DNA of 64,000 nt, taken from positions 53,413,501 through 53,477,500 of the forward strand of contig CM065804.1 of the NCBI GenBank assembly GCA_033398695.1, in the 5' to 3' direction. The translations under genes were made by a program, and so were the position numbers. The notes under the pieces were generated by a model. That model was not told where the DNA came from. It ran no database searches and worked only from the letters and a program-made list of their open reading frames with translations. The DNA comes from Orobanche coerulescens (taxonomy: Eukaryota; Streptophyta; Magnoliopsida; Lamiales; Orobanchaceae). Within the stretch, counting starts at the first letter, position 1. Every line of letters begins with the position of its first letter. Shown here piece after piece: positions 15,775-52,800 of the stretch.

Positions 15775-15777
15775 TCT

Positions 15778-23204: not shown

Positions 23205-23209
23205 TATTC

Positions 23210-25671: not shown

Positions 25672-25706
25672 TCCTCTCTCCCTAAAAAGAAGTTTTGTCC
25701 CGAAAC

Positions 25707-27625: not shown

Positions 27626-27631
27626 AGTTTT

Positions 27632-27649
27632 TGGCGTCATTGCCGGGGA
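27632..27649 (+). other. Primer binding site of B (tRNA-Asp)
   Basis: tggcgtcattgccgggga, six bases after the LTR end. It matches the complement of the plant tRNA-Asp 3' end with two mismatches. This primer and the six-base gap are shared with element C. Confidence 0.85.
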
Positions 27650-28202: not shown

Positions 28203-31112
28203 TGTAATACCCATCATTTTTATAATGTAATATTATTAATTATAATAATATTATAATGCATTTCATGTTATTTAATTTCATTTAAGGAATCATGAACATT
28301 TAGTTCGACGTATCACAAGTCCTAGCCCGAGTCAATTTCTCAAGTTAATTTCAAAACATTTAATATTAGTCATTTTTATGATAATTAAAGGTATTATTAT
28401 TATAATATTTATAATAGGAACGATAATAATATTAATAGTATTAATATTTTTATCTTCATTATATTTATATATCATCATTTATATTACTTTCGATATTATT
28501 ATTAGTATCGATATTATTAATTATTACCATTGTTATTATTAATTTTATAATTATTATTATTATTTTTATTATTAGCATTATTATTATTGTTTTTATCATT
28601 GGCCCAAATACACATTGTGCTGACCCATAATAATATTACAAACCCAGGAAATTAATACAAGCCCAAAAAGAAATTAATTAACCCTAACCCTAAACCTACA
28701 GTATAAATATACCGCCTCTACTGTACAAATACACAATACAACACATACAACACAGAATACACCTTTTCTTCCCAGCGCCGTCTTCTTCTTCTTCTTCTTC
28801 GTTCCACAACCAAAAAAAAAAAAAAAAAAAAAGGAAAAGAAAATACAACACAGAAACTTGCTGCAAGGAGGAAGGAGGAGCAGACACGTCTTCATCTTCA
28901 TCGACCGTCCAAATTCAACGAGTCATCTGAATCTCAACAGGAGGTAGTCTGCCGATTTCTTCTCGGAATCATATTCTCGTTTTCTTATTTCCTGCTAGGA
29001 TATCAGATAATTCTTCTTCATGATTTCGAATCCATAACAGAAAATCATAATCCGAAAATATGAATTTCAATCAAACGTAGAAAACCACAACCCCAGAAAT
29101 TAAACCAGATTCCATAATCAACAACACCAAAATCAAACATCACCGTTTCAAATCCACTGCCCGAACCCGAAACCCTTCGGACCTGCGGCATAACACCGAG
29201 CCAGTTTCACAAAAATCTGCTCCAATTCGCAACGCCGAAACCAGAAACCTTTAAGTCACGAAGATCAACTTCAACCCGTAACCCAAAATCAAAACCCGAT
29301 CAACATTAATTTTGAAATCTAAACCTAAATTTCCAACCACATCGGCCATCTCCTCTCAGAACCAAAAACCATCACCCGCTGACCCGGATTCACTCAACCA
29401 TCAACCACGAACCATGGCCGAAATCAACCTCAGGAATACTAATACCCTTACCTGTTTCCAGTCGAGGCCCGACCCGAACGATGGGACTTTCCATCGCGTC
29501 GCTGATTCCCTTTTTGTTCATTCTCGTCTGTCGTGGTCTGTGTGTGTGTCCGATTGGTTGTGAATTGTGTGCAGATGGTTTGAGATACAGGGTCTGATTT
29601 GTGTTCCGACCGTATGAATGTTTTCCGTCTTCTGTACTCCGACCGAGATGGGATTTGAGAGAAGGGAGGTCCGTTTTTAGTAAAGGTTAGAGAGAGAGGT
29701 GGAAGAGAGGGCTGGAGAGAGAACGGGTTTGACGGGAGAAGGGGGTGAGAAATGAAGGTTGATGTCGGCTGAGGTGAAGAAGAGGGTTTTATATACCCGC
29801 GATTTTCGTAGGTTATTCGATTTAATCCTCTCATTTTCCAGCAACTTCAATTTAGCCCTCACATCTTTCAGAAACATTCAATTCAGTCCCAGATAGTTTA
29901 AATTAATTCGATTTTAATCCAGTCAGTTACTCAAGTCTTACAATCTGACCCAGTCAATTTTCAAACTTCAATTTAATCCTAATTTTGACCGAGACATTCA
30001 AAATATTGACTTCCAAATTAATAGTAATAATTATGGCATAAATATTTTACTTTCAGTCACTAATAATGTTAACTCTTCAGTTAATATTAATTAGCAATTG
30101 TAATTTATTTTCAGTTATTATATAGTGATATTCGTATCCTTTCATTTATTATATAAATAATAAATTGTAAGGATTTTAATTATTATTATTATATGTAGAC
30201 TTTGTCAAGGATTTACGGGCTTAGGACTGTGAGTCGAGCACATTCATTTCATCGGACATCATCATCATCATTTATTCAGTGGGAATTTTCACTATCACTT
30301 TAATTGCTTTAATTGGACCGTGTATGTGATCTTCTATTCATGTTTAAAATTTTTATGCACGTTGTAATTCAGCTAACTTGTTTTCGTGTAAGAGGCTATC
30401 TTAAGATATATGTTGTTGCGGGACACTGCGCAACCTCAATATTCACATGCGTGCTCGATTCATGTTATGTGGTATTGTGTTTATGTTTTATGTTGTTGCG
30501 GGGACACCTGCGCAACCTCAATATTAACATGCGTGCTCGATTCATGTTATGTGGTATTGTGTTTATGTTTGATGTTGTTGCGGGGGCACCTGCGCAACCT
30601 CAATATTCGTGTATGCGTGCTCGATTCATGCTATACGTAATATTGTGAGTATGCAATTACGTTGAGGAAAAATGTGATAGATTCTTCATGTTATGCTTTC
30701 CATGAGATTGTATATTACTGTGATCAGTGTGATTTCCACGAGCTGAAAGAAGCTCACCCCCACCTTTATTGAACTCGCAGTTGAACCTAGCCGGATGGAC
30801 GAAGGAGCGAGCCGAGAGGGCATATGAAAGATGAAATTATTATATGATGTTTCTTTATGTCAACTATTTTGAAACTTTTGGGGAAACTTTGACTAGAAAT
30901 ATTAAATTATGATTTATTTTCTTCCGCCGAAAATTTTTACCTCGTATTTATGATGAAATGTTACCTTATTTAAAGGTATTTATTTTTATGTCTTTGTAGC
31001 GACTCGACTTTGTAGGCGAGAATTTTTATATTCTCAAGAAAATTATTTTTCTCAAAATTTACCTTTTATTTATTTTTCCCCATTATTTACCCAAGAAAGT
31101 CGGGGCGTTACA
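28203..31112 (+). repeat. Element D 5' LTR
   Basis: Starts tgtaatacccatc and ends ggcgttaca. The first 400 bp are very AT-rich (ATT/TTA runs). TATA-like tataaata is near 28702, then a TTC microsatellite at about 28785-28803 and an A run at about 28813-28832. It has no palindrome array upstream of the TATA box, unlike the other LTR families here. Confidence 0.93.
30410..30640 (+). repeat. Tandem repeat in D 5' LTR (about 83 bp unit)
   Basis: Three units containing gttgttgcggggacacctgc, gcaacctcaatattcacatg and gcgtgctcgattcatg. The matching array in the 3' LTR is 37930-38162. Open frames here are repeat artefacts. Confidence 0.85.
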
Positions 31113-31115
31113 TAG

Positions 31116-31127
31116 TGGTATCAGAGC
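31116..31127 (+). other. Primer binding site of D (tRNA-Met)
   Basis: tggtatcagagc, exact match, three bases after the LTR terminus. Confidence 0.93.
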
Positions 31128-31339
31128 GGGTTCTACCTTTCTGTAGACTCGCTAAAATGTAAAAGTATCATATGCTCTCAGCTTCGCCACTTCGTCACTC
31201 CGTCTGAGGTACCAAATTTTAGTTATTATTCATGCATATGTCATTTCATTTTATTCACATAATTATTTACGCATGTACGAACTGTTAGAATGGCCAAACC
31301 TAGAATGACTCATGAGTTTTACAACTCGTTGGCAGACTC

Positions 31340-32410
31340 ATGGCTAACCGCGGAAATCGCAATGCCCCACCCACACAAGATCAACTCTTGGTTGGATTGG
31401 CCACCTTGCTTCAAGGCGCGACTATCGTACCGCCTAATAACCCTGAGCAGGCTCAAGCTCAAGTTATTAAGAGGTTCAACCACTTCAAGCCGCCTGTCTT
31501 TCTTGGTCGTGAGGGACCAGCAGCCATAGAGGAATGGTTGATGAATCTAGATAGCATTTTTGACTACATGGCGTGCACCGAAGCTCAGAAGGTGTCATGT
31601 GCTGTGTTCCAGCTTAAGGAAGATGCTCGGACATGGTGGATGGGAGTGTGGAGGCTCAAGACTCAAGACGAGAAAGACACATTCACTTGGGATCAGTTTA
31701 AGGAGACGATCATGGAAAAGTACTACCCAAGAGCATACAAGATCAAGATGCAGAAGGAGTTCCTTGATCTAACCCAAGGTGGAATGTCGGTAGCCGAGTA
31801 TGAGCGCAAGTTTAACCATATGTGCCGTTTCGCTCCCCACATGGTCGAGACGGATGATATGAAGTCTCAGAAATTCCGGGATGGACTTCGTGACCGGATT
31901 CGCCACCATTTGGCTGGTCATGGTCGTTTGAGATACAATGAAGCCGTTTCAAGGGCCGAGGACATTTCTGCTAGTTTAGATGTGGAGAAGGCTAGGGCAC
32001 AACCAGTTGCAACAAATAACAAGTGCAAGTGGCACGATCAAGGAGGTGGTAACAAGAAGATTGTTAAGACTGGACCTTCAGGGGTGAAACCCCAGTCAAC
32101 TAACCCTACATGTGCTACTTGTGGCAAGGGACATAAAGGTGCATGTATGCTTGGTCAGAGGCGGTGCTACTATTGCCGTGAGGAAGGACACCTGGCACCA
32201 GCGTGTCCGAAGATAGGAAAGGGCCCAGGCAATAATGTGCAAGGTCAAGGCTCAGGAGGCAGAACTCGAGTGTATAGCATGGCCGAGGTCAAGCAGAGAT
32301 CGAACCCCAAACAATGTCAGGTATGTTATCAGTTGCAAATATTCCTGCTTTGGTGTTGTTCGATACGGGTGCGTCTCATTCATTCATCTCTAGGAAGCTT
32401 TGTACTATGA
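31340..32410 (+). CDS. gag: Element D Gag
   Basis: 356 codons from ATG 31340. It has the capsid core ([40 protein letters not shown]) and then two cysteine motifs: [12 protein letters not shown] near residue 256 and the CCHC knuckle [14 protein letters not shown] near residue 276. It overlaps pol, which lies in the -1 frame from 32314. The last about 25 codons after [12 protein letters not shown] look like out-of-frame reading into pol. Either a -1 frameshift is used, or one base was lost in a formerly continuous gag-pol; Tekay-type elements usually have a single ORF. Confidence 0.88.
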
Positions 32411-35400
32411 TTGTTTGTAGAAGTAGTAAAGCCCCTAGATCTTTGTTAGTTAGCATGCCTGCGGGGGGAGTAGTGCGTGTAGACTCGATAACTAACAATG
32501 TGAAGATAGAGATTAATGATCATAGCTTCTTAGCCAACTTGCACATAGTGGAACTTAGCGATTTTGATGTCATTTTGGGTATGGATTGGTTGGACAAGCA
32601 TAGAGCTGTAGTTGAATGCTCCGAAAGGAGAGTAACTTTATGTCCGTCCGTTGATGTCAAGACCGTATTCGAGGGAGTTAGACACAGCAGTACCCCAAAG
32701 GTGATTTCTGCCATGAAAGCTGTGAAGATGCTGAAGAAGAGTGATTGCCAAGGATTTTTGGTGAACGTGATGGGGAAAATGACTTCGGAGAAGAAGGTAG
32801 CTGATGTACCTATCGTCAAAGAGTATCCAGATGTCTTTCCCGAAGACTTGCCCGGAGTTCCACCGAATCGTCAAGTTGAGTTCTCGATTGATCTAGTGCC
32901 AGGAGCGGCACCAATATCGAAGGCTCCCTATAGGATGGCGCCTAAGGAATTGCAAGAGCTGAAGGTACAACTCCAGGAACTGCTCGACTCTGGATTTATC
33001 CGACCGAGTGTTTCGCCATGGGGTGCGCCAGTGCTCTTCGTGAAGAAAAAGGACGGAAGTTTGAGGATGTGTATTGACTATCGTGAACTTAATCGACTCG
33101 GAATAAAGAATAAATATCCACTTCCTAGAATAGAGGACCTATTCGATCAACTTGGAGGGTCGGGAGTATTTTCGAAGATAGATTTGAGATCCGGATATCA
33201 CCAGCTGAGGATTAAGAGTGATGATATCCCGAAGACCGCATTTCGAACTCGTTATGGACATTATGAATTTATAGTGATGCCATTTGGTTTGACTAATGCG
33301 CCAGCGGTATTCATGGACCTCATGAACCGTGTATTTCAACCTTATTTGGATAAGTTTGTCATTGTGTTTATTGATGACATACTTGTATATTCGAAGACCA
33401 AGGTTGAACATGAGCAGCATCTTAGAACGGTATTGGGAATACTGCGCAAGGAGAAGTTATATGCGAAATTCAACAAGTGCGAATTCTGGCTTAACCGAGT
33501 TGCATTTTTGGGTCATGTGGTCACTTCTAAAGGAATTGAGGTTGACCCGATTAAAGTTGAGGCAGTCAATGATTGGAAAGTACCGAGTAATGCGAATGAA
33601 GTTCGAAGCTTCTTGAGATTAGCCGGTTATTATCGGAGATTCATCGAGGGATTTTCGAAGATAGCTGCACCGATGACTAAGTTGACTAGGAAGGGGGAAG
33701 CTTTCTTATGGAATGAGAAATGCGAAAGGAGTTTCCAAGAACTTAAGCAAAGATTAACTGCTGCACCAGTATTGACGATTCCCGATCCGACGAAAGAATT
33801 TGTCATCTACAGTGATGCATCCAAACAAGGTTTAGGATGTGTATTAATGCAAAAGGGCAAGGTAGTTGCCTATGCTTCGAGACAGTTGAAACCGCACGAG
33901 CTGAACTATCCTACTCATGATTTGGAATTAGCAGCGGTAGTTCATGCCTTGAAGATTTGGAGGCATTACCTATATGGAGGTAAGTGTGAAATCTATACAG
34001 ACCACAAAAGTCTGAAATATATTTTCACACTGAAGGAATTGAATATGAGGCAGCGCAGATGGCTTGAGTTGGTCAAAGACTACATTTGTACAATTCATTA
34101 CCACCCCGGTAAAGCAAACGTAGTTGCTGATGCACTAAGCCGTAAGGCAAGAGGAGACCTAACTTGTTTGTTGACCAAGGAGGAAAGCTTGGTCAAGGAA
34201 TTTGCAAGGATGAACCTTGAGATGGCTACACCATTGAGTCCAGTTGAGTCATTATTGGCTAGTTTGGTGGTACAACCAACCTTGAGAGAACAAATCAAAG
34301 AAGGTCAAGGACAGGACGACTTCTTGGTCAAAATGAAAGAACATACTCTTTCAGGTGAGGATAAGGGATTCAGTGTGTCTGATGATGGAACAATGTACTA
34401 TGAAGGGAGGATCTGTGTTCCCAAGGTTGTCAAGTTGAGAGAAGCTATATTGAAGGAGGCACATAGTACTCCGTATACAGCACACCATGGGAGTACAAAG
34501 ATGTACCAAGATCTTAAGGGGACATTTTGGTGGGGAGGTTTGAAAAGAGATGTGACGGACTTTGTCCGAAAGTGTATAGTTTGCCAACAAGTGAAGGAGG
34601 AACACCAACGCCTTGTATTACTTAAGTCACTTCATATCCCAGAATGGAAATGGGAACACATTACGATGGACTTTGTGGTAAGTTTGCCTCGAACGGAAAG
34701 AGGAAACCACGTTATTTGGGTTGTTGTCGACCGACTCACAAAGTCAGCTCATTTTATCCCAGTTAAGATGAACTTTCGAATGGATCAGTATGCTCAACTG
34801 TATATCAGGGAGATTATTAAGTTGCATGGAGTGCCAGTCTCTATAGTATCCGACAGGGATACTCGTTTCACGTCGCGTTTTTGGGAGAGTTTGCAAGAAG
34901 CTTTGGGAACGCAGTTGAATTTTAGTACGGCTTATCATCCTCAAACTGATGGTCAGTCCGAGAGGACCATCCAGATCCTTGAGGATATGTTGCGAGCATG
35001 TGTGCTAGATATGGGAAATAATTGGGAACGACTGTTGCCTTTGGTAGAATTTGCTTACAACAACAGTTACCAGTCGACGATCGGTATGGCACCGTATGAA
35101 GCCCTATATGGTAGGAAGTGTCGATCACCACTGTATTGGGATGAGGTAGGAGAAAGGAGGATTTTGGGTCCCGAGATGATCGAGCAAACAGTTGGCATGG
35201 TGGATAAGATTCGTGAGAGGATCAAGATAGCCCAGGACCGTCAGAAGTCTTACGCCGACAAGCGTAGGAAAGATTTCGAATTCTGTGTTGGCGACAAAGT
35301 ATTCCTGAAGGTATCTCCTACAAAGGGAATTGTTCGTTTTGGTCCGAGGAGCAAGTTGAGACCAAGGTATATTGGACCGTTCGAAATCCTCGAGCGGATT

Positions 35401-35547
35401 GGAGAGTTAGCTTACCGTTTGGCTTTACCCCGTAACTTTCTACGTGCACAACGTCTTCCATGTATCATTGTTGAGGAAATATGTGCACGATCTCAGCCAC
35501 GTCATCAACTATACCTCCGTAGAGATGAACAAAGACCTTACCTATGA
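32314..35547 (+). CDS. pol: Element D Pol: protease-RT-RNase H-integrase
   Basis: 1077 codons without a stop. Aspartic protease FDTGASHSF (Asp17). Reverse transcriptase about 190-430 with [13 protein letters not shown] (286-298) and FIDD (352-355). RNase H with Asp501, Glu539, Asp563 and Asp606. Integrase with His717, His724 or 725, Cys754 and Cys757 in the zinc module, and Asp786, Asp847 or Asp849, and Glu883 in the core. GPFEIL is at 1021-1026. All catalytic residues are present. The final about 37 codons run out of frame, because a shift near 35430 moves the chromodomain into the next frame. There is a two-residue gap after HQR in the integrase linker relative to E. Confidence 0.93.
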
Positions 35548-35758
35548 AGAACAACCAGAACTGATTCTCGATCGATCAGTCCGGCAATTGAGGAATAAAG
35601 AGAAGGTGTTCGTCAAGATCCAATGGCGTAACCACACCCAGGATGAAGCCACTTGGGAGCGCGAAGAGGAACTTCAAGCTCGTTATCCGAATTTCTTCAA
35701 TCAAGGTATATCATTTATTTTCGAGGACGAAATTTTTTCTAAGATGGGTAGGATGTAA
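35444..35758 (+). pseudogene. pol: Element D chromodomain, out of frame with pol
   Basis: Continues the integrase C-terminus in the +1 frame: [19 protein letters not shown] through LRNKEKVFVKIQWRNHTQDE to ATWEREEELQARYP. This matches E's C-terminal chromodomain-like module, which in chromoviruses is thought to bind histone marks and steer integration. A small indel near 35420-35445 separates it from pol. The stop overlaps the start of the 3' LTR. The purine tract aagatgggtagga (35741-35753) lies within its end. Confidence 0.82.
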
Positions 35759-38635
35759 TACCCGTCATTTTTATAATGTAATATTATTAATTATAATAAT
35801 ATTATAATGCATTTCATGTTATTTAATTTCATTTAAGGAATCATGAACATTTAGTTCGACGTATCACAACTCCTAGCCCGAGTCAATTTCTCAAGTTAAT
35901 TTCAAAACATTTAATATTAGTCATTTTTATGATAATTAAAGGTATTATTATTATAATATTTATAATAGGAACGATATTAATATTAATAGTATTAATATTT
36001 TTATCTTCATTATATTTATATATCATCATTTATATTACTTTCGATATTATTATTAGTATCGATATTATTAATTATTACCATTGTTTTTATTAATTTTATA
36101 ATTATTATTATTATTATTAGCATTATTATTATTGTTTTTATCATTGGCCCAAATACACATTGTGCTGACCCATAATAATATTACAAACCCAAGAAATTAA
36201 TACAAGCCCAAAAAGAAATTAATTAACCCTAACCCTAAACCTACAAAGATAAATATACAAATTTCTACCGTACAAATACACAATACAACACATACAACAC
36301 GTAATACACCTTTTCTTCCAGTACTGCCTCTTCTTCTTCTTCTTCGTTCCACAACAAAAAAAAAAAAAAGAAAAAGGAAAAGAAAATACAACACAGAAAC
36401 TTGCTGCAAGGAGGAAGGAGGAGCAGACACGTCTTCATCTTCATCGACCGTCCAAATTCAACGAGTCATCTGAATCTCAACAGGAGGTAATCTGCTGATT
36501 TCTTCTCGGAATCATATTCTCGTTTTCTTATTTCCTGCTAGGATATCAGATAATTCTTCTTCGTGATTTCGAATCCATAACAGAAAATCATAATCCGAAA
36601 ATATGAATTTCAATCAAACGTAGAAAACCACAACCCCAGAAATTAAACCAGATTCCATAATCAACAACACCAAAATCAAACAGCACCGTTTCAAATCCAC
36701 TGCCCGAACCCGAAACCCTTCGGACCTGCGGCATAACACCGAGCCAGTTTCACAAAAATCTGCTCCAATTCACAACCCCGGAACCAGAAACCTTTAAGTC
36801 ACGAAGATCAACTTCAACCCGTAACCCAAAATCAAAACCCGATCAACATTAATTTTGAAATCTAAACCTAAATTGCCAACCACATCGGCCATCTCCTCTC
36901 AGAACCAAAACCCATCACCCGCTGACCCGGATTCACTCAACCATCAACCACGAACCATGGCCGAAATCAACCTCAGGAATACTAATACCCTTTCCTGTTT
37001 CAATGAGGCCCGACCCGAACGATGGGACTTTCCATCGCGCCGATTCCCTTTTGTTCATTCTCGTCCGTGGTCTCGTGTGTGTCCGATTGGTTGTGAATTG
37101 TGTGCGGATGGTTTGAGATACGGGTCTGATTTGTGTTCCGACCGTATGAATGTTTTCCGTCTTCGTACTCCACCGAGATGGGATTTGAGAGAAGGGAGGT
37201 CGGTTTTTAGTAAAGGTTAGAGAGAGAGGTGGAAGAGAGGGTGGAGAGAGAACGGGTTTGACGGAGAAGGGGTGAGAAATGAAGGTTGATGTCGGTGAGG
37301 TGAAGAAGAGGGTTTTATATAACCGCGATTTTCGTAGGTTATTCGATTTAATCCTCTCATTTTCCGGAACTTCAATTTAGCCCTCACATCTTTCGAAACA
37401 TTCAATTCAGTCCCGTATAGTTTAAATTAATTCGATTTTAATCCGATCGATTACTCAAGTCTTACAATCGACCTACCAATTTTCAAACTTCAATTTAATC
37501 CTAATTTTGACCGAGACATTCAAAATATTGACTTCCAAATTAATAGTAATAATTATGGCATAAATATTTTAATTTCAGTCACTAATAATGTTAACTCTTC
37601 AGTTAATATTAATTAGCAATTGTAATTTATTTTCAGTTATTATATAGTGATATTCGTATCCTTTTATTTATTATATAAATAATAAATTGTAAGGATTTTA
37701 ATTATTATTATTATTATTATATGTAGACTTTGTCAAGGATTTACGGGCTTAGGATCGTGAGTCGAGCACATTCATTTCAATGACATCATCATCATCATTT
37801 ATTCAGGGAATTTTCACTATCACTTTAATTGCTTTAATTGATGTGTATGTGATCTTCTATTCATGTTTAAAATTTTTATGCACGTTGTAATTCAGCTAAC
37901 TCTGTTTTCGTAAGAGGCTATCTTAAGATATATGTTGTTGCGGGACACTGCGCAACCTCAATATTCACATGCGTGCTCGATTCATGTTATGTGGTATTGT
38001 GTTTATGTTTTATGTTGTTGCGGGGACACCTGCGCAACCTCAATATTAACATGCGTGCTCGATTCATGTTATGTGGTATTGTGTTTATGTTTGATGTTGT
38101 TGCGGGGGCACCTGCGCAACCTCAATATTCGTGTATGCGTGCTCGATTCATGCTATACGTAATATTGTGAGTATGCAATTACGTTGAGGAAAAATGTGAT
38201 AGATTCTTCATGTTATGCTTTCCATGAGATTGTATATTACTGTGATCAGTGTGATTTCCACGAGCTGAAAGAAGCTCACCCCCACCTTTATTGAACCTGC
38301 AGGTTGAACCTAGCCGGATGGACGAAGGAGCGAGCCGAGAGGGCATATGAAAGATGAAATTATTATATGATGTTTCTTTATGTCAACTATTTTGAAACTT
38401 TTGGGGAAACTTTGACTAGAAATATTAAATTATGATTTATTTTCTTCCGCCGCAAATTTTTACCTCGTATTTATGATGAAATGTTACCTTATTTAAAGGT
38501 ATTTATTTTTATGTCTTTGTAGCGACTCGACTTTGTAGGCGAGAATTTTTATATTCTCAAGAAAATTATTTTTCTCAAAATTTACCTTTTATTTATTTTT
38601 CCCCATTATTTACCCTAGAAAGTCGGGGCGTTACA
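35754..38635 (+). repeat. Element D 3' LTR
   Basis: 2882 bp, same termini as the 5' LTR. It differs mainly by small clustered indels, for example at 36240-36360 and 37360-37480. Followed by cgata. Confidence 0.93.
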
Positions 38636-38640
38636 CGATA

Positions 38641-39677
38641 AAAATGAGACTTTTCGTGAACACTTTGAAGGACAGAGCAAGAGAGTGGCTAGATACTTTG
38701 CCACCACGAAACATAACAAATTGGCCCGAATTTGTTCAAAAATTCACCAATGAATACTTTCCACCAATAAAGTGGCGAAACTCAAATACGAAATCTCTAC
38801 ATTTCGTCAACAAGATTCGGAGTCATTTCATGAAGCATGGGAGAGATACAAAGATATGCTACGAAAATGTCCAAACTATGGTTTCAATTTGGGAGCACAA
38901 GTCAGTTACTTCTATTCTGTACTCTTACCTACATACCGAGCCAATGTCGATTCATCATCAAATGGTTCACTTGGAAACAAAACTATGAGAGAGGCTTATA
39001 ATCTTTTTGAGGTTATAAGTGAAGAAAGTGCAAGATGGCTAGAAAGAAATATCCAAAAGAAACCAAATGGTATTTTTGAAGTGGATTCTTATTCAATTAT
39101 GGTGGCAAAAACTGAAGCTTTATCAAAGAAAGTCGAGGACGTGTCTTTTTCAACTCCTCAATCTGTGAAGATGGTGCAAACTCCACAAGTTTCAGCTCTT
39201 TCCGGTGAAATTTGTGGAGCAACTCACAACAGCACTATGTGTCCCTTAGCGCAATAGGAGCAGTCATTCCCACCACCAGAACAAGTGGCCTATGCTCAGA
39301 ATTTCCAAAGGCAAGCATACAATCCTTACGGGCCAACATACAATACAGGGTACAAAAATCATCCAAATTTTTCTTATGCAAACAACAACAATGTGTTGAA
39401 TCCAACGCATCTAGAAAAGAAGCCCGGGTGGGAAGAAGCAATCACAAATCTAGCCGAACAACAACTGAAGTATCAACAACGCAATGATGCTTCAATTATA
39501 AATCTGGAGACACAAGTTGGCCAAATGGCCAAAATACTTTCTGAAAGATCCCACGGCATGTTACCTAGCAATACCAAGGTAAATCCAAGGGAGAGTGTCC
39601 AGGCTATCACAACAAGAAGTGGAGTGCAATTGCGTGAGATTTCTGTGGAAAATCATCTGACAAAACAAAAAAAATAA
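38641..39677 (+). pseudogene. gag: Element B gag, C-terminal part
   Basis: Picks up the frame left at 28202: LFVNTLKDRAREWLDTLPP. It loses one base near 38772 (the frame moves to KLKYEISTFRQQDSESFHEA, the core Gag helix region) and then has a TAG at 39255-39257. The knuckle GEICGATHNSTMC has lost its first cysteine. Beyond it, LETQVGQMAKIL and AITTRSGVQL are typical of the Athila/Tat Gag-protease linker. It ends at 39677. Confidence 0.85.
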
Positions 39678-39689
39678 ACAAAGTCGAGA

Positions 39690-40457
39690 AATAGAAAAAG
39701 AATTTGAATCAGGACCTTCATCTCAAAAAGGTCCAGTTGCTACCAAATCTTATGTTCCACCTATTCCTTTTCCTCAACGGTTGAAGAATCACAAGCTCGA
39801 TGCGTAATTCGGCAAATTTGTGGAAATTTTCAAAAATCTACACATCAACATACCTTTGCCGATGCTCTAGCACAAATGCCAAGCTATGCCAAATTTATGA
39901 AAGTTATTCTTTCTAACAAATAAAGGCTTGAAGAATATGAAATTGCCGTGCTAACAGAGGAATGTAGCGCAATACTACAAAAGAAGTTGCCACCCAAGCT
40001 AAAAGATCCGGGAATTTTTACAATCCCGTGTACAATTGGTGAAGTAAATATTGACAAAGCTCTTTGTGATTTAGGGGCAAGTATCAATTTGATGCCCCTG
40101 TCAATTTTCAACAAACTAAACTTGGGATAAGCAAAAGCAACAACAGTTTCACTGCAATTACCCGATCGGTCAATCAAATATCCACATGGGACAATAGAAG
40201 ATGTGCTAATTAAGGTTGCTAAAGTTATATTTCCTACAGATTTTATCATCCTTGACATGGAGGAAGATCATGATATTCCTATTATCTTGGGACGACCATT
40301 TCTTGCAACCAGACATGCTCTTATTAACGTCTATGAAGGAAAGCTAATTCTTAGAGTGCAAGACGAACATGCCACCTTCAATGTCCTAAAAACTTTGAAT
40401 CATCCCTCCACAGATGATTACTGTCTAAAAATTGATGCAATTGATGCCAGAATATGA
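39690..40457 (+). pseudogene. pro: Element B protease region
   Basis: Aspartic protease of the Athila/Tat type: [17 protein letters not shown] keeps the catalytic Asp, followed by MEEDHDIPIILGRPFLATRH. It is broken by stops (TAA near 39921 and at 40128-40130) and by one-base losses, one near 39860. It ends at 40455-40457 with no reverse transcriptase downstream. Compare element C, where the catalytic Asp is Asn. Confidence 0.85.
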
Positions 40458-40854
40458 ACAACATCTTGGGAATCTGACGTTAAAAGACCCAGTTTGCCAA
40501 TTTATAAGAAAATTGGATGGGAAGCTTCAACCCGACTCTTAGAAGGTGTTTAAGCCGTTTCTGAACGTAAAATCAGAGGAAGATGTGAGCCACAGTCACA
40601 ACTACTGCACATATGCGTAAGTATCTTTTATTTTTGTCGTATGGTGAGATTTTCTGAATAAAAAAGGGGGTGATATGCAATAAATGCATTCATTATTCAA
40701 TTGAGTAGTTGGAGCGCAATCAAAGCAATCACAAACTTGTTAAACAATTTTTACCTTCTTTTTCTTCTATAAATAAATATTGTGCTTGTTTCTTTTATTC
40801 ATCCCTCAAACTTGTACTTTTCTCTTTTTCTCTCTAATAAATTTCCTTTCTAAA
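40458..40854 (+). promoter_or_regulatory. Spacer with TATA box upstream of the LOG gene
   Basis: No RT sequence follows the protease. The spacer includes a purine run (aaaaaagggggtga near 40660-40673). Then tataaata lies at 40768-40775 in a CT-rich context, with a CT-rich leader (cttttctctttttctctc) up to the ATG at 40855. The TATA-to-ATG distance is 80 bp. This resembles a plant core promoter and 5' leader carried along with the captured gene. Transcription is inference. Confidence 0.5.
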
Positions 40855-41511
40855 ATGGAGTCATCATCTTCAACAAAAAAATTTAGCACAGTCTGCATTT
40901 TTTGTGGAGCTAGTTATGGAAAAGAGGCATGCTTTACTGAAGCAGCCCACAACTTGGGTCGTACCTTAGGAGAAAAATGTATTCATGTAGTTTACGGAGG
41001 AGGAAGTCTAGGATTAATGGGATGAGCTGCTGCTTCTGCCTATATAGAAGGAGTAAGAGTGTTGGGAATAATTCCAAAACCTCTAGCTGAAAGTAAAATC
41101 ACCGGGGCAACTATTGGAGATGAGTTTAGATCTGTAAATATGCAAGATCGCATAACTCACATGATAAATAATTCTGGCGCCTTTATCACCCTTCCCGGTG
41201 GTTTTGGCACTCTTGAGGAACTTTTTCATGTGGTTACCAGAGCCCAGCTAAATGTTCATCAAAAACCAATAGGTCTGCTTAATGTCAATGGTTTCTTTGA
41301 TGGTTTACTATCTTTCATCGACTACTCTGCTGAAAAAGGTTTTATTTCCGAGCGTGCTAAACGAATCATAGTCGTTGCAACAACACCAGAAGAACTAATC
41401 AAAAAACCCATTGAATTTGTTCCTCAACCAGATCCAGCTCTAGCTAAAATTGTCTGGATGGAAGATTTTACCGTGAGAAAACGAAAAGTGGATTTATTCA
41501 TCTCCCTTTGA
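40855..41511 (+). pseudogene. LOG-like: LOG-type cytokinin phosphoribohydrolase inside element B
   Basis: LONELY GUY enzymes release active cytokinin bases from riboside monophosphates. This single-exon, 218-codon gene starts at ATG 40855 with FSTVCIFCGASYGKE, then VVYGGGSLGLMG (residues 45-56), GIIPKPL and the catalytic signature PGGFGTLEE (114-122, Glu122). Arg99 of the MHxRK-like motif is kept, but the next Lys is Ile (MQDRI). Length fits the family. One in-frame TGA is codon 57 (41023-41025); the 161 codons after it stay open to TGA 41509-41511. It diverges from the common plant LOG set, so it may belong to another clade. It lies between protease and the purine tract of B, in the element's orientation. 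Plant LOG genes normally have several introns; this copy has none. Confidence 0.92.
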
Positions 41512-43163
41512 TAACCCATGTCGGACCTCTTGTATTTTTACTTTCTGTTGTGTGTAAAAATCGTGCTAAATGATGGCAGCTTAAGGAGTTTCTTCGTGAT
41601 CTCTTGACGTGCATCTATTCGCGATTTATGTATTGTTATTTTATTGCTGTAATTTTTATTGTTTGTTTTTTTATAAAAGCATTGATGGCCGCGTAAGGCG
41701 ACTCTTCGGACTTTCTTGAAGCGCATCTTAAAAATTGTGTTATACTTCCGAGTATATTTTTATTTTCTTTTGTTGTTTGCCTCGTATATTTATTCTCTTG
41801 CAGATTCTAAAAGGCGTTAGCTCAAGCATCAACTTTCATAACAGGGAGTATTCTGTTTTTCTCCTTGCTTTTTATTTTATTTTTATTAAAACTGAGGACA
41901 GTTTTATTTTCAAGTTTGGGGGTGGTATGTTTTAATTATTTTGGTGTGTTGGTATTTTGGTCTGTTTTGATTATTTTGGTTATTCGCCTTAAATTTTTAC
42001 TCAATTTTTTTAGTGTATATATATATATAGTATTATGATTTATGAGATTTCTAGATCTGGCCATAACACCAATAAGTTAGCTATATACAAGCTTTTAAAA
42101 TCATTATAACCGGTAAAAAAATTGTATATTCCAAAATTTTTGAGCCTTAATCTCTCTTTCCAAGCCTTGTAGTTATCATATAAAATCGAGTCATTCGTTA
42201 CCTTTAGAAAAGAAGAATTAGTCGATTGATGAAAAATATAACTGAAATTTACTTAATTTGTGGAGTTTTTAATTTTTCATGCTTAGCTAATAAACGATTT
42301 TCTGTAAAAATTCTATTCCCTGAAAAAAGGAGTCATTGGTGAAAGGAGTCTAGTTGAAAAAAAAGGGAGAGGTGTTGAGCAGCAAGAGTTGCCTAATTTT
42401 GGAGGTCCTAAAATTTTGCGAAAAATAAAGGACTAACCATTGTTGGTGCGTAGCTGCCGTCTCACACGAAATGGAAATAGTGTTGGTGAAAAGAGCTACA
42501 CGTTAGCAAATAACGGTGTGAAAGCTATCACCTAAATAAAAAAAAAGATAGAAAATGTGTTGGTGAAAAGAGCTACACGTTAGCAAATAACGGTGTGAAA
42601 GCTATCACCTAAAAAAAATGGAAATGGTGTTGGTGAAAAGAGCTACACGTTAGCAAATAACGGTATGAAAGCTATCACTAAAAGGGATGTAGTTTATGAG
42701 CAGATTTGAATTAATTAGCGGCTGAATTTCAATACACTCAATTTCATGAACAATCACAATATGTAATGACGCCGATGAAATTCTTATTCATATTGAGTCA
42801 AAAAATAAAAGAGTGATCGAGAGCAACCATTAAAGGGAAGTCATGTGTGGCACGAGTGGGAAAGAAATAATCAACCTTTTGGGGGGAAACCTTGCATTTT
42901 GGAATTACAAAATAAAACCGTGTTTTAACATCAAAATCATTAGTAGATTTATTTTGAATCTTGATTCATTTCTATCTACTGTATAAAGCTGGTTGTTGTG
43001 TATTAATGACATTTTGATCTCTTTTTCTCTTTTTATATAATTATTTTTCTTAATTTGTGTGTGTATTATTTTTCTTATTTTGTGTCTTATTTTTATTTTT
43101 TATTTTGAGCGTAAATAATAAAGAGTCTTGCTCGGGACTAGCAAGAATTCAAGTTTGGGGGTG
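41512..43163 (+). other. Non-coding tail of B downstream of LOG
   Basis: No coding domain. An imperfect direct repeat of about 40 bp (41571-41616 and 41693-41728) has the forms tgatggcagcttaaggag and tgatggccgcgtaaggcg, each ending in gcatct. The phrase gaggacagttttattttcaa, then gtttgggggtgg (41911-41928), is the internal purine-tract motif usually found after pol in Athila/Tat elements. The true polypurine tract is aagtttgggggtg at 43151-43163, touching the 3' LTR. Confidence 0.75.
42481..42681 (+). repeat. Three tandem copies of a 55-bp unit (period 70-77 bp)
   Basis: Copies at 42481-42535, 42558-42612 and 42628-42681 of tgttggtgaaaagagctaca, then cgttagcaaataacggtgtg and aaagctatcacct. 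They are separated by A-rich spacers. The copies are nearly identical, so the amplification is recent relative to the element. The unit contains a weak inverted pair (cgttagcaaataacg). Confidence 0.9.
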
Positions 43164-44805
43164 TGATAAGTGTTAGTTTTATATACTTATCCATGGTTTG
43201 TATCGATATGTTTCACCCATAATTGAGCTAGTCTACTCATTTTTGCTTTTAATTAAATAGTTTTTAATAATTTTATTTTTATCGGATGAAGATGTAAATC
43301 TAGTCTTAATCGGATTGAATTACTGATTTACCCAAGAAATAACATGTTTATAAAATATTCTCTTTGTTGAATTTTTATGTATTCATGTTGTAGGGCTTTC
43401 CGAGACGAGTTCGGCAGTCTTTCCAGATTCAAAATTAGAGTTATAAATCAAAAGTTATCATCCGAAGAAGATTTGGGGCGAAAACGCAAAAGTCAGAAAT
43501 TCTGGGCTAAAAATGAAGTCTGAAACTCCATACGGGCGTAACATCTAAAAGTTACGGGCGTAACTCACAAAGCAACTAATGTGCAAAAAGCCGTAGCCAT
43601 GTTACGGCCATAAGTCCCCAATGTTACGGCCGTAAGTCCTCATAGTTACGGTCGTAAATCCTCAAAGTTATGGCCGTAACTCTTGACAGATTTTTGATCA
43701 TTGTCTAATTTTTTATACTTTTGGTCTATTATTGAGGGTATGGCTGGCATTGATCCGATCTAATATAATAATGCCGGAGTTTTGGAGCTATTAGATGACT
43801 TTAGGTGTATAAATAGACCCCTTAGATCCATCATCCATCATCATTCATCTTATATTTTTCCACTTTTTGTAATATTTTCTTTTTTGTGTGAAGAACACAC
43901 TTGTGTTCTTGAGTGACTTGTGTAATAGTGGTATAGCATATGTTGTTAAGGGAGTTTATTGCTTCTTTCTCCTTTATCTACTAAGGGAGTTAGGATCAAT
44001 TCTTTCTCTTTTTCAACTAATAATGACCACTCAAGCTTGTATTATGTTTATTAAACCCTTCATGGGCTAAGTTACTTAAGTTGGGATTATAAACAAGGTT
44101 AGTTGTGTTATTTAAGTTTGTATAAAGATCTATTATGAATTACTTATTATTGTGTGTGATTTTTATTGTTTTACCAATCTTTATTTATTTGGCCACTCAA
44201 TGACGATATTTATGGTCTTCATATGTTTCGAAAGAAAATATGTTTGATTAGATCAAATGATTTTCACTCTAAGTTGTACTAGGGGATAGAAATATACCTC
44301 TAGACCTTAGATGATTCTTTGACTTATTTTCATAAATCCTAATGCTATGTATTGAAGCCAATCAATATAGAAATATAGTGGATTGATTCAATATATAAGG
44401 GGCATTTTATAGTTCGAAAGAGAAACCGTCTTTTTAAGGAAAATCGAATCTACACAACATAATAAGTAAATTCATCTTATGATCTCCTATACATCTTCTA
44501 TAACTAATGATGAACTAAGTTTATAATCCCAACTATTTCAGTTTATCTTTTATCAATCTATTATTAGTACAACCTTTTATTTCCTTGAATATTAGAACTA
44601 TTATTGCATTTTCTTTGCAATTGTCAAACTAAACTCTTTAATTGTATGTTTCACTCATCTTAATATCTATAAAAATAGACTAATACTGTATAATTCAAAT
44701 TATAATCAAACTTCCTCGTGGAATCGATAAACCGGACTCAAAAAGTCCACTTACTACTTGATACGATATCGTGTACTTACGATAGTTACACTAAAGACCG
44801 TGTCA
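43164..44805 (+). repeat. Element B 3' LTR (complete)
   Basis: 1642 bp from tgataag to tgtca, uninterrupted, so it serves as the reference for the fragmented 5' LTR. Palindrome array gttacggccgtaac-type at 43530-43682; TATA box tataaata at 43808-43815. Followed by cgtct. Confidence 0.95.
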
Positions 44806-44810
44806 CGTCT

Positions 44811-45474
44811 CCCAAACAGACTCCGGCTGAGTTAGTGCTTCTAACAATGCCTCCTTTGTGAAGCTACCCATCATTGTTGTGAACGCTGATTCATTAACCT
44901 CGGGTAACTCATATAACCGTTGAATTGCCACCGCAGAAAAGTCAACCCTCTGACCGCGGACCGTGACCTCAGTACGGATGTTTGGTCTCCCCAACATAGG
45001 CCCTCCACTAACATGATGAAGCAAAGCACGAGTGTAGAATTCATGCACTATAGAGATGACGGGTGGCTCAGGTTGTGCAACGAATCGTGTCCATCCCATC
45101 TCGGTCATCATCGATAATAGTTCTCCGTCTTGCGGGGCGGGAGTGAATCCTCGCTCGAGAATAATGGGCTGCAGGCGAATCCTTTCATTGAAGAGTCGAT
45201 GAAGCTCAGGGTCGGAGAGATGCTGGAATTGCCCATCCGTCGGGTTTTGAGTGGTTTCCCCTCTCGGGGGAGATAATCGAGTCATGGCCCAGTTTGAGCT
45301 TACATTTCTCTTTCGAGCCATTACGAGTTCCTGCGCCGCGGAAGAAGGGCTTAGGGAGGAAAACCCGTTTCGGCCGAATGACTCTAGTTCTGCCCTATCC
45401 ATATAAATTCTTTCAGCAGGGGCCGCATCACGTAGTAAGCTGGCCACGGCCCTTGGTACAGGAAGACTTGGCAT
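44811..45474 (-). pseudogene. Element C second ORF, N-terminal part
   Basis: Minus-strand ORF reading from 45474 (or from an internal ATG at 45402, MDRAELESFGRNGF). It passes through HLSDPELHRLFNERIRLQP and VSIVHEFYTRALL to SVWET, where element B interrupts it. It then continues at 11374 in the same frame. It resembles uncharacterised plant retrotransposon proteins (putative plant transposon protein) that sit between the polymerase region and the 3' LTR in Athila-like elements. Function unknown. The upstream start would read through the GC-palindrome array, so I favour the ATG at 45402. Confidence 0.72.
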
Positions 45475-45760
45475 TCAGAGAGACTAGTAGCGTGCCGCGT
45501 CTCGAAGTAAGGGTGCCGCGGCTTCCAGAGTAAGTGTGCCGCGGCTCAACATGTGCGTGCCGCCGCCTATAGTACAGCAAGTTGGGCGTGGTTCTGGGGC
45601 TTTGGCATGCCGCGGCCTGTTCTCAGCATGCTGCGGCTCCTGGGCAAGTGTGCTGCGGCACAGAAGATGCGTGCCGCGGCCCACGGTACAGCGACTTCAG
45701 CCCACTTTTCTTTGATTTTGTGTGTCGTGGCCCTTACTTAGTATGCCGCGGCCCTAACTG
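45420..45760 (-). promoter_or_regulatory. GC-palindrome array upstream of C's second ORF
   Basis: About a dozen copies of gtgccgcggc and variants (catgccgcggcc, gtgctgcggcac, ggccacggccc) spaced roughly 20-35 bp, directly upstream of the second ORF on the minus strand. The motif is the same type as in C's own LTR promoter (8978-9150). This suggests an internal promoter copied from or co-evolving with the LTR, or simply a satellite-like expansion. Confidence 0.55.
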
Positions 45761-45964
45761 GAATTTAGCCTTGGAGCGATTCCTGCGAAGGTTCTTAAAC
45801 TGTAATCAAAGAAAACACATGAGAAAAACACAGTAAAGCGAAAATTCCGGAAAAAATAGATTAAAAAACAACAAAAACTAAAATTCTACTACTAATACTC
45901 GGGTTGCCTCCCGAGAAGCACTAAGTTTATAGTCTTCAGCCGGACCTTTTGAAAATCAATTTGC

Positions 45965-46747
45965 TTATCGCAAACACCATTTGGACTCTGCCAAGTCCAT
46001 CGAACCGTTATTACGTGTTTTAAATTTTTGACTATTAGTTTTTAACCATTCGACTTTTGGTTTGGACATCCAATGTTCTTTGCGAAAAGACTTGAACAAT
46101 AGTAACTTACCGAAACACCGATATAGCAAATGTCTTCGCAACCGTTTTACTTTCGGTTTAGTTTTCTTTTCCACTGACGAATTTATAACTGCATTAGCAT
46201 TTTTTAATGGTGGGCGAATGGATGATGAAGTCGACACGTCCAAATGACTAAGACACCCGACTAGTTCTAAATTCTTCTTAGATGTCAGAGCAGCTAAAAC
46301 AGATTCCGAACATTCTGACAGAGAACTCTCTAGGTTTGTATCTTTCACAAGAACATCCAAGCTTTCAGTTTGAGAACACGTCTCGACTGATGGAATGGTT
46401 CGCGTTGGAGAACTTCCGAGCTCCTCACAGGGTTTCCGAGTGAAAAATGGTGCTGAAGCATCTATATGTCGTAAATAAGCTACGTTCTCTGGATTCATCT
46501 CGGTAGAGGATCTGACTAAAATGGACTCCAGTGGATCTTATTGGTAGCTCTTCAGACAAGCGCTTCTTACATACGAGTCAATGACATCAATTTGAAAGCA
46601 ATTTTCGACATCTCTAGGATGTTGCATAGCTCGAAACACATTAAAAGTGACTTGCTCCTCTTGAACTCGTAAAGTTAGCTCCCATTTTTCCACGTCAACT
46701 AGAGTTCTGCCAGTCGCTATGTATTCCCAAGATAATTGGGATGTCAT
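45965..46747 (-). pseudogene. Element C post-protease tail
   Basis: Minus-strand frame containing the protease C-terminus (GRTLVDVEKWELTLRVQEEQ), a stop at 46538-46540, then a Ser-rich stretch (ENVAYLRHIDASAPFF to PKVEWLKTN) ending at 45965. Just beyond, on the minus strand, is the phrase cttctcgggaggcaacccga (45928-45909 region), a motif usually seen near the end of Athila/Tat pol. The polymerase itself is missing, so the frames before and after it have been joined by deletion. Confidence 0.65.
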
Positions 46748-48590
46748 GATCTTCTTCTATATCGAGCACAATAAAGTTAGCTGGGAAAATGAATTTATCC
46801 ACCTTAACCAAAACATCTTCTATCACCCCTCTAGGATACTTGATGGATATATCTGCTAGTTGTAAGGAGACCGTTGTAGTCTTGGCCTCCCCAGTACATA
46901 GTTTCTTGAAAATAGAGAGAGGCATAAGATTTATACTGGCGCCAAGATTGCACAAAGCTCTATCAAAGGACGAGTTTCCAATGGTGAAAGGTATATTGAA
47001 GCTTCCTGGATGTTTCAATTTAGGTGGGAGCTTCCTCTGCAAGATAGTGCTGCACTTTTCAGTTAGTTCCACCATTTCATATTCTTTGAGCTTTCTTTTG
47101 TTAGATAATATCTCCTTCATAAATTTCGCATAACTCGGCATTTGTTCTAAAACTTCGGCAAATGGGATATTAATGTGCAATTTCTTGAAGACATCAAGAA
47201 ACTTAGAAAACTGCTTGTCTAACTTTTTCTTTTGCAGACGCTGTGGAAACGGGACTGGTGGTACATAAGTAGGATGTGTGGTCGAGACTGCTTTTAGTTC
47301 GGGCTTTGAGGACATAGTGGTCTCTACTTGAGTGGGCTCCTAACTCTTGACTTTCTCAATGGGAATGCTCTTTTCTTCCCTACTCTTGGATTTCTCGTGT
47401 AGTTCCTTTCCACTTCGTAACTCAATAGCTTGCACATATTCCATGGGATTCATTTCGGTAGCACTTGGTAAGACACCTTGGGATCTAGATGATAATAGAT
47501 TTGCAATCTGCCCCATTTGAACCTCCAAATTTCGAATAGAAGCGGAATGATTCTGTAGAGTAGTTTCCGTGCGAGTCATGAATTGACTCGTGTTAGCCTC
47601 CATTTGAGCAATTGCATCTTCTAAAGAGACCTTCGGTGGTTGAGGGGGCTGCTATTGTGGCTGAGTGACTTGAGCTTGTGGAGGATTGTTCAACGCTTGC
47701 CCATTCCTCCACGAAAGATTTGGATGATTTCGCCACCCTTGGTTGTAAGTGTTAGAATACGGGTTATTTTGATGATTTCCATTGCCCACAAATTGAGTTT
47801 GTTCCACCTGAGATTGCTCAAATGGATTCCCGACTTGACATTTAGCACTAGGATGAGAGCCACTGCACCAATTACATGTTTTCGTGGTACTGGTATAAGG
47901 GGCGTGTGATAAAATTTGGAGTTGTTGAGTTAAAGCTGCAACTTGGGCCGATAGCGTAGATATCAGATCATTGTCGGAGATTTCCATAACTCGTTTCGGG
48001 TTTACACGCTCAGAAGGCCATTGATAAGCATTCACAGCCATAGCTTCTAGTAAGGAATAAGCCGCAGCCATAGTTTTGCCCATTAAAGCATCCCCAGCTG
48101 TTGCATCCACTAGAGTGCGTGTAGAGGCACTCAATCCATTATAGAATGTTTGAATTTGCAGCTAATCCGGTAGACCATGATGGGGGCATCTCCTTAGAAA
48201 ATATTTATATCACTCCCATGCCTCGTGTAGCGACTCCATATCATACTATCCGAAAGTGGTTATCTCATTTCTCAGTCTTGCTGTCTTTGCCGGTGGAAAG
48301 AACTTAGCCAGAAAAGCTTGCGCTAACTCTGCCCAAGTTGTGATATAGCCTGGTGGGAGTGAATTTAACCAGAACTTGGCCTTGTCCCGTAGAGAAAATG
48401 GGAAAAGTCATAGACAAATGGCATCATCAGTAACATCGATCCCTTGATTTCCAGTATTGTCTCCCGTAGTATCTGGAATCAATAACTCACGTCTTTCCTT
48501 CCTGTTTTTCCGCAGAGTGTGTTCGAGTTCGGTATCCAAAGAAAATAAACCTTCGTTACCAAATTTTTTCATGCACTAAACGAATTCCTC
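46695..48590 (-). pseudogene. gag-pro: Element C gag and protease
   Basis: Minus strand from about 48590. The Gag core includes SLRDKAKFWLNSLPPG and HEAWE, then SASTRTLVDATAGDALMGKT, a CX2CX3HX4C knuckle CNWCSGSHPSAKC, linker LEVQMGQIANLL and protease [17 protein letters not shown]. The catalytic Asp of the protease is Asn. Several in-frame stops occur (near 48412, 48236, 48162, and at 47652-47654 and 47340-47342). Those clearly readable are TAG. The frame changes near 46740. Confidence 0.85.
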
Positions 48591-49879: not shown

Positions 49880-52800
49880 TGTAACACCCCCAATCCACTC
49901 AGGGATATTACACGCCGTAGACCCTCTCCTCGAGGATCTACCAGGCTGGTAACAATATTTAACATTTCGACAATGCCTTCAAGGCTACAATGACTCAGTA
50001 GACCGATTTGGTCTTTCCACAAATACATACAACTCAAATACCACTCATGCCCACGCAGGGGACAAAATACAACTACACCCGTACAACGGGAACAATACAG
50101 CAACGGAAAATAAAGTACAACTGAACCAACACACGATGTACGGTTCCTCATGTGATTAGTATCGATCATCTTTCATCATCCTTCGTGCCGACCCTGTGTT
50201 ATGCTCCAAAACCTGAATGCAAAAACAGACATCCACCCCCCGAATACTCGGGGGTTAGCAAAACTCCACTGTTTTGCTAGTGCAAATACAAAGTGCAAAT
50301 ACGAGCCATACAATTCCCATTCCACGAATAACAATAACCGAGGATCCTCAAAGATCCAAACGAAACGAAAAGTACTTCCCGAGGCAAGGGTTTGAGAAAA
50401 CATTTCAAAAACGAAATATCATAAATCAATGGGAATAATTTATAAAACGGTTTAGAATGCCATCGAGAGTTTTAATAGAAAACAATTTAGGATTATCAAA
50501 TCCTACTTTTCAAAACCAAAGACAAAAGGGGTCACCGCCCAAAGGTTTACTTTACGGAAAATGACATTAACCAAATCGTTGGGATTTTAGCCCCAAATCC
50601 AGAAACGACTTTTATAAACCATTGGGATTTTAGCCCCAAATCTCATCAACTCACAGTACACGAGAACGTCAACAAGGTTCGTCTTCCAACGTCAAAATCC
50701 ACAAATAAATGATTTAAAACAAACAACAAAATACTCTAGAGCCATCCTAGCCAAGTAGGCCAAACGAACAACTTACCTCTTACACACTTAGTCAATGCAT
50801 GCAATCATGAAAGCCGTTCAAAAGCACTCATTTCCGGAAATGCCAATGATCAAACTACATTTGTAAAAATGCACCACAATTAACCGCGGACCCACAGCTT
50901 CGTGGATCCCTGCCGAGACCCCGTCGGATCTAACCCACAGTGGTTAAAAGCAAGCTCGCGGTCCCACAGCTTCGTGGAACCCTACCGAGACCCCGTCGAG
51001 TCTAACCCGTAGTGAGCATACACACACACACACATTACTCATGCAATACTAACATGCTAAGAATGTAAGTTCATTAAGAATACTCACTAGAGATGGCCAT
51101 TAACTCGACACCATTACCAAACTCTTCAAAAATACATTAACAGGATTAAATACGGAATACACGATTCCATAACTTAAACAATAGGAGCATCATCATAAAA
51201 TCCTTCAACGTTCAAAATAATCAAATCATAATCAATTCCCAAAACACACCATTCACAAAACACCCACGCATTTGAAAGAAAGCCTTTAACGAGGCCAAAC
51301 CGAAATCTTTTGAAACTTCGTTTCAAACAACCAAACAAACACACTAATACGATCACCGATCATCATATCCACAAAATAAGAAAAGTATGGGCAAGGTACT
51401 TGCCTCGAATAAGAACAACGCGGAGAATCGACCGGAGTAGGTTGGCCCGAACCGACTACGAACCCGCCGACTCCACCGAACGCCAACTCACGTTCATAAA
51501 CTACGAAGGACAAATAATAACAATGAAATGAATTCCATAACACGACTCAAAGTCGTTGAATTCAAAGAACGAATGACGAAAGTTCACGGATTTCCCCAAA
51601 GCGGCCAAGAACACGATTCGTTCCAAAACCCAAAACGAAATTTCAAGTTGAAATATGGATATACAATCCATAGAATATGTTTAACAACATCATTTAACCA
51701 TAATCGATCCATCAACGGATGAAAACGAGATCGGGACAAATCCCCCAAAAAGTCAACTCGAAGGAAATCAAGAAATATACTTCGATTCGACGAAGAACAA
51801 TGGATTAAATGATGTTAAACACAAGAATACTATCAAGATTAATCACACCCATCATGAATTAATCAACAACACGGAACGAATCGGACGAAATTGCAAAAAT
51901 CCCCAAATTCACGAAATTAGGGTTCTAAGGAAGATTACCTTGATTCGCTGGATCAAAGGTTGATAACGGACGATCGATTGATGTTTTGAACTCAAGGACT
52001 TCATGGATTTGTTGTTAAACAACATGGCTTCGTCGCCCATGAATCGCCACTCGCGGATGGAGAAGGAAGGAAATGAAAAACGAAGTGAAATGTGACTGCT
52101 CAGCCATATTTATACCGGGCCAGCCTAACGTGCGCTAGCCTTCCCGGACTAGCGTGCGCTATCGGCCGGTATCGGCCGAGTACCCTCGGCCAGGGCCCAC
52201 AACACCCGGCATCACCGACTAACCCTGCCGACCGAACCTGTCGACCCAACTCCCGCTAGCGCTACTGGCGGATACTGCGCGCTAGCCGACCTATCCAGAG
52301 CCACCGGATCAATCGCCCGGCAGTAACGACGCTAGCCGGGCCGACGCGTGCGCTACGCTGCCGACTAGCGCGCGCTACGCCGGCGTAGCGTGCGCTACTC
52401 GCCGATCCCGACCGAGTCGAGAACCTCGAAACCCCAGCTGTGCCCGGGCCAGAAGCGTCGCTGAGCCACCCGGCGTGCGCTACACTGCCGGTTAGCGCGG
52501 CAGCCTTCCGGCCAGAAGGCGCTCGCCGGTTCTGCCGCACCGTCCGGCCGGTGCCCGCAATCGTCCGGCGCCCCGCCACCGTCCGGCCCCGCCACCGCTG
52601 TGGCTCGGCGACCCGATTTCAAAGCAGGCGGAGCGAACACGGCGAAAAGTTCGCGGACAAGATAAACGACTCGAAATGAAAGCGTAATACCATAATTAGT
52701 CATACGCGACCAAGAAACGGGTCGAGACAACAATTACAGATACGGATACGTAACTTTCAAGAAATTACAAAATGGCCCAAACGCCTAAATCACGATACGT

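Follow-up and report, generated by a model that had tools for sequence, protein, structure and literature searches.

The window (the 64-kb stretch of DNA analysed here) holds an LTR retrotransposon, element B, and within it a LOG-type reading frame. The question that this locus raises is whether the frame is cargo of the element or a neighbouring locus, and, if it is cargo, for how long and to what end such elements have carried it. The presence of LOG itself is confirmed. The first-pass annotation had recognised a LOG-type gene by its PGGFGTLEE signature, Arg99 and Glu122, and all three are present in the frame, the signature being of the PGGxGTxxE type; the Arg and Glu of this region are the catalytic residues of LOG enzymes. 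The part after an in-frame TGA matched PF03641 with E=3.8e-35 and 121.4 bits (Pfam cut-off 27), and its best solved relative was Arabidopsis At2g37210 (E=5.6e-39). The 56 residues before the TGA gave no Pfam match; an intact Orobanche relative covered the whole frame in one alignment piece (218 residues, 85.8% identity). The earlier description of the gene as full-length thus holds for the length of the frame but not for the integrity of this copy, which is broken by the TGA and carries in addition a Leu-to-Pro change found in 0 of 251 relatives. It was the single LOG match in the 64-kb window by tblastn, three further rows having E values of at least 0.34. The frame is intronless; ordinary plant LOG genes have introns.

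Element B has the paired LTRs, target-site duplication, primer-binding site and polypurine tract of an LTR retrotransposon (Table 1). Its boundaries had been called firm in the first-pass annotation, and the LTR pair, the CGTCT on both sides, the polypurine tract and a primer-binding site that matches the tRNA-Asp 3' end at 16 of 18 positions bear this out. The LTR starts with TGATAAGTG (11380) and ends with GTGTCA (27625). Three insertions were found within B, a CACTA-like transposon and an LTR element in the 5' LTR and a further LTR element in gag, and because of the nested insertions the 5' LTR lies in three pieces. The CACTA superfamily was assigned by the end motif. At the 15837/27463 junction with the nested LTR element, the 5' LTR lacks about 104 bp, the equivalent of 44538-44641. 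The N-terminal gag part gave no Pfam match on its own and resembles plant gag. Minus its insertions, B measures about 8.4 kb by arithmetic. The divergence of the LTRs (K=0.037 over 1294 aligned positions) would place the insertion of this copy at 1.2-2.7, that is about 1-3, million years ago at assumed rates of 1.5e-8 to 7e-9. The copy in the window is now dead.

Table 1. Element B, its nested insertions and the LOG frame in the window
Feature	Position	Strand	Remarks
Target-site duplication CGTCT, left	11375-11379		
5' LTR, first piece	11380-12675	+	94.8% identical to 43164-44477 (1316 columns)
CACTA-like DNA transposon nested in the 5' LTR	12676-15774		ends CACTACTA/TAGTAGTG; 3-bp duplication TCT
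5' LTR, second piece	15775-15837	+	100% identical to 44475-44537
LTR element nested in the 5' LTR	about 15824-27463		LTR-like pair 15824-20088 / 23197-27463, 95.7% identical; ends approximate
5' LTR, last piece	27463-27625	+	27462-27628 against 44642-44808, 93.4% (167 columns)
Primer-binding site	27632-27649	+	16/18 match to tRNA-Asp 3' end
gag, N-terminal part (MRRTYNRDL...)	27732-28202	+	interrupted by nested element
Second nested LTR element, in gag	28203-38635	+	LTRs 28202-31112 / 35753-38635, 96.4%; duplication CGATA; own pol ORF 32314-35547
gag remainder, frameshifted	38641-39677	+	PF03732, E=8.8e-9 and 1.2e-5, two frames
gag-protease remnant	39700-40457	+	RVP_2, E=2.3e-4, within 40131-40457
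LOG frame	40855-41511	+	219 codons including terminator; in-frame TGA 41023-41025
Three tandem repeat copies, 3' non-coding region of B	42471-42688	+	70-77 bp each
Polypurine tract region AAGTTTGGGGGTG	43151-43163	+	
3' LTR	43164-44805	+	
Target-site duplication CGTCT, right	44806-44810		

LOG lies between the protease remnant and the polypurine tract, in the orientation of the element and inside both the LTRs and the target-site duplication. A LOG-specific insertion signature had been named in advance as the observation that would make LOG a chance single retrogene inserted into B; it was looked for and none was found. The longest direct repeat in the flanks (10 bp) was reached by 155 of 300 shuffles and hence did not exceed chance, and no run of seven or more A was present within 600 bp downstream of LOG. 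A single retrogene with a duplication of its own is therefore unsupported, and the frame has the properties of a captured processed gene: it is intronless, inside the element and free of its own insertion signature. Since, in addition, Orobanche annotations hold near relatives in very many copies (see below), the assignment of LOG as cargo of element B is well supported. The sequence TATAAATA, 87 bp before the LOG ATG, was considered as a TATA box of its own and rejected: with 8 occurrences of this 8-mer on the plus strand of the window, it gives no evidence of one.

No reverse transcriptase, RNase H or integrase was detected by Pfam in 12 short sense frames scanned within 40429-42436, and a search of 38641-43163 with the nested element's pol ORF gave nothing (best E=0.32), though a strongly decayed pol of another lineage could escape such searches; the same query matched another pol elsewhere in the window with 55.9% identity. 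Since none of the three enzymes was found, B looks non-autonomous, and the enzymes of a partner would then be needed. The lineage of B was judged from a neighbour on the minus strand, whose gag is Athila-like: 39749-40292 of B and 46725-47269 of this neighbour share 68% DNA identity over 547 columns, and the neighbour's ORF at 44803-45474 matched PF20167 below threshold (38.6 bits, cut-off 45). Judged from this one neighbour, the gag and protease of B look Athila-like. The neighbour, at 44803-48134 (minus strand), is another gag-protease element with a PF20167-like ORF, and B is inserted in or beside it. Antisense to the gag of B, at 38778-38884 (minus strand), Rfam reported snoR71 (RF00097; 54.9 bits, gathering threshold 40), and this family's match in B may be retrotransposon gag that it has picked up. 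Further along the window, two direct repeats of some 3.2 kb each (49880-53085 / 55361-58554, 94.6% identical) are perhaps the LTRs of another element.

A protein search with the LOG part after the stop gave 5490 matches, of which the best 120 were examined. By the name of the representative, 93 of these best 120 were Orobanche clusters with 818 member sequences, divided between O. hederae (31 clusters, 378 members), O. minor (55 and 420) and O. gracilis (7 and 20); the named clusters outside Orobanche were Rehmannia (7), Paulownia (4) and Reevesia (1). These copy counts are gene models without genomic context, in clusters formed at 90% identity that may mix species. The Orobanche representatives were spread, the 31 O. 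hederae rows over contigs of 23 different lengths and the 55 O. minor rows over contigs of 28. Among the matches listed, the closest relatives were 88% identical to the window LOG. Over the lists of all three protein searches, Reevesia contributed 219 members in 56 clusters and Diplodiscus 36 in 9, Populus, Melia and Parasponia were also present, and no row carried a Citrus name. A further 23 viral-contig loci with LOG relatives of 27-45% identity were not used in the conclusions. Because close relatives number in the hundreds in broomrapes and recur in several other flowering plants, the data suggest that LOG relatives have been carried and spread by jumping elements for a long time.

The tree was built from 120 of 254 proteins, hand-picked, mostly near full length and taken from each named group with some others, to which the window LOG, halves of two Xanthoceras rows and three canonical chains of solved structure were added. 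Support is given as ultrafast bootstrap/SH-aLRT. The window LOG grouped with Orobanche at 100/100, within a Lamiales group of 64 rows (100/97); the remaining 57 rows, rosid where a name is given, grouped at 96/79. Together they form a clade of 121 rows (100/98) that excludes Xanthoceras, At2g37210, At5g11950 and yvdD. The O. minor row P0114 (3 members) represents a second, long-branched Orobanche lineage. Xanthoceras P0121, P0122 and P0207 retain the canonical Lys discussed below, and the halves of two of them fall outside the clade. Frames of about 217 residues are retained across the clade, with rows from Lamiales, Malvales, Populus and Melia. With this sampling, which leaves out the nearest host genes, the clade may go back to one capture or to several.

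The fold was judged on P0002, an intact Orobanche relative and not the window copy. Its predicted structure (pLDDT 83.3) aligned with the At2g37210 chains (2a33) at TM scores of 0.93-0.95 by target length and 0.75-0.76 by query length, and the model is that of a LOG fold. Residues were counted in P0116 numbering over 251 rows, the 254 proteins minus the three Xanthoceras rows. The catalytic Arg98 was kept in 222 of these, Glu120 in 238 and Glu121 in 241. Lys99, the residue after the catalytic Arg, was kept in 4, replaced in 242 and gapped in 5. Of the mobile rows in the tree, 69 are not Orobanche; more than 90% of these had replaced Lys99, mostly by Ile, Met or Leu, and more than 90% had replaced Glu124, which follows the second motif Glu at a distance of three residues, mostly by Gln or His; Orobanche rows nearly always had Ile at 99 and His at 124. 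The mobile rows share the fold, the PGGxGTxEE motif and the catalytic Arg and Glu with At2g37210 and At5g11950, and differ from them at the Lys after the Arg, at the Glu after the Glu pair and in the tail. In the last 14 residues, LxLxL was present in 133 of 160 other rows, a set that includes the Orobanche rows P0114 and P0117, and in 0 of the 91 Orobanche rows counted. LxLxL resembles an EAR repression motif, and no claim is made from it.

Capture of cellular sequence by an LTR element is familiar from maize Bs1, which is low-copy and carries parts of cellular genes, whereas here a single enzyme frame is present in full and has many relatives. That the first-pass annotation was not aware of a LOG example cannot stand as a mark of novelty, and a claim to the first LOG case does not hold: in the accessible text of PMC9289625, a screen of 121 angiosperm genomes, a LOG-type YgdH domain is reported in Gypsy consensuses of Citrus sinensis and C. 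clementina and, once the filter of the screen was dropped, of Populus trichocarpa, in agreement with Steinbauerova et al. 2011 as cited there. These elements resemble B in carrying a LOG-type extra domain in a Ty3/gypsy context. According to the same text they were found through their reverse transcriptase, so that they have pol, whereas none was found in B; its Citrus/Populus section is without copy number or LOG clade. Populus LOG proteins share the clade of the window LOG, a comparison of proteins and not of element sequences. The Phalaenopsis AlkB Gypsy elements described in that text likewise carry a cellular enzyme domain in an LTR lineage; AlkB is an RNA demethylase active in vitro, whereas the LOG activity in B is predicted from sequence. 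Plant OTA elements (PMC6317226, as far as accessible) also have an extra ORF beside the polyprotein in Ty3/gypsy; that survey began at 250 codons, so that a LOG of about 218 residues lies under its threshold, and its most prominent domains were PMD, Transposase_28 and Athila ORF-1. In the titles and opening lines of abstracts from the literature searched, which covers few subscription papers, no further report of LOG in retrotransposons appeared. Within the accessible text, LONELY GUY, cytokinin, phosphoribohydrolase, gypsy and transposable do not occur in PMC13192451, which describes the Orobanche genome, nor do decarboxylase, cytokinin or Citrus in PMC7264820, nor cytokinin in PMC4381496; a text search of PMC11963269 was without match. 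New here are the Orobanche-like setting, an architecture without pol, the number of copies and a clade that is conserved. The abstract of PMC9289625 terms long-term fixation of cellular enzymes in retroelements rare.

To examine constraint, changes were counted by parsimony on protein trees, with 51 rows for the Orobanche clade, the window LOG among them, and 17 for the Reevesia clade; such protein data are no substitute for dN/dS, and gene models favour intact frames. At sites conserved in other mobile rows (39 of 206), 9 of 124 changes were found on internal branches of the Orobanche tree (p=2e-4) and 68 of 497 on terminal branches (p=1e-3). Other conservation thresholds gave the same direction, with a modest contrast between internal and terminal branches (Fisher p 0.007-0.066 depending on threshold). 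For Reevesia, 7 of 83 internal and 33 of 164 terminal changes fell at conserved sites (56 of 206), the terminal changes being not significant at the strictest threshold (p=0.14). As changes in the clade avoid conserved sites, and more so on internal branches, selection probably acted during the spread of the LOG copies. At sites invariant in five canonical rows, the internal-branch ratio was 0.29 for Reevesia, which avoids them, and 0.85 for Orobanche, which hardly does; 300 draws of five mobile rows gave a mean of 0.63 with a 2.5-97.5% range of 0.44-0.77. Orobanche was not significant at these canonical-invariant sites (p=0.14 internal, 0.053 terminal). In Orobanche, LOG is thus probably under weaker selection than canonical LOG, or under selection of another kind, and because canonical-invariant sites are so little avoided, canonical LOG activity may be relaxed there.

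Taking these results together, we consider it likely that, in an Orobanche-like plant, the intronless LOG belongs as a standing cargo gene to an Athila-like Ty3/gypsy family that has gag and protease, lacks pol and is non-autonomous. LOG was found within an element, its near relatives are multicopy in Orobanche, and its clade is multicopy in other eudicots; the broken window copy and copy counts drawn from gene models without context count against this reading. Alternatively, LOG could have been caught by a deletion derivative and copied merely by lying between LTRs, useless to element and plant. The broken copy, the missing pol of B and the weak avoidance at canonical LOG sites in Orobanche rows would all suit such a neutral passenger, which we nevertheless regard as unlikely, since clade-conserved sites are avoided in Orobanche, more strongly in Reevesia and above all on internal branches, and since frames of about 217 residues persist over Lamiales, Malvales, Populus and Melia rows. 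It is very improbable that one LOG transcript inserted by chance in this B copy while the multicopy LOG of Orobanche spread otherwise: B is known here from one copy, and LOG from a single match in 64 kb, but the frame has neither target-site duplication nor poly(A) of its own, hundreds of near relatives stand among the best 120 of 5490 matches, and LOG follows the orientation and the position downstream of the polyprotein that, in the accessible text of PMC7264820, are usual for extra ORFs. Least probable of all is an ordinary intronless plant LOG family, grown by tandem or segmental duplication and occasionally caught by elements, for although some Populus rows are annotated as ordinary LOGL10 genes and the tree follows plant groups, the representatives lie on many contigs and the LOG-type domain is published inside Citrus and Populus Gypsy consensuses (PMC9289625, accessible text).

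For the preferred reading, that of a standing cargo gene, a course of events can be proposed. A processed LOG transcript would have been captured by a B-type element and given rise to the LOG clade; the reverse transcriptase and integrase of an autonomous partner would have copied it, and selection would have kept LOG while copies spread. The predicted product would work as a nucleotide N-glycosidase, releasing active cytokinin or using a related adenylate as its substrate, and, as a guess, it might favour the cells through which the element is inherited. A bolder form of this proposal we hold to be possible but doubtful: that since before the asterid/rosid split a lineage of eudicot retrotransposons has had a LOG-derived enzyme gene as a permanent part. 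This gene would have been inherited with purifying selection acting on it and with changes at two positions close to the active site (the Lys after the catalytic Arg and the Glu after the catalytic Glu pair); its product, made by the elements themselves, would free cytokinin or cleave a related adenylate and so serve element spread, and in parasitic broomrapes the gene would have reached hundreds of copies.

The interest of the finding lies in LOG, if this is true, as a long-standing working gene of eudicot retroelements, which in the accessible text of PMC9289625 are thought to include few that keep a cellular enzyme for long. The LOG gene models that number in the hundreds in annotated Orobanche genomes would then be explained as element genes, a warning against counting element LOG models in gene-family studies, and if elements keep a LOG lineage, the activation of cytokinin would be linked to their spread.
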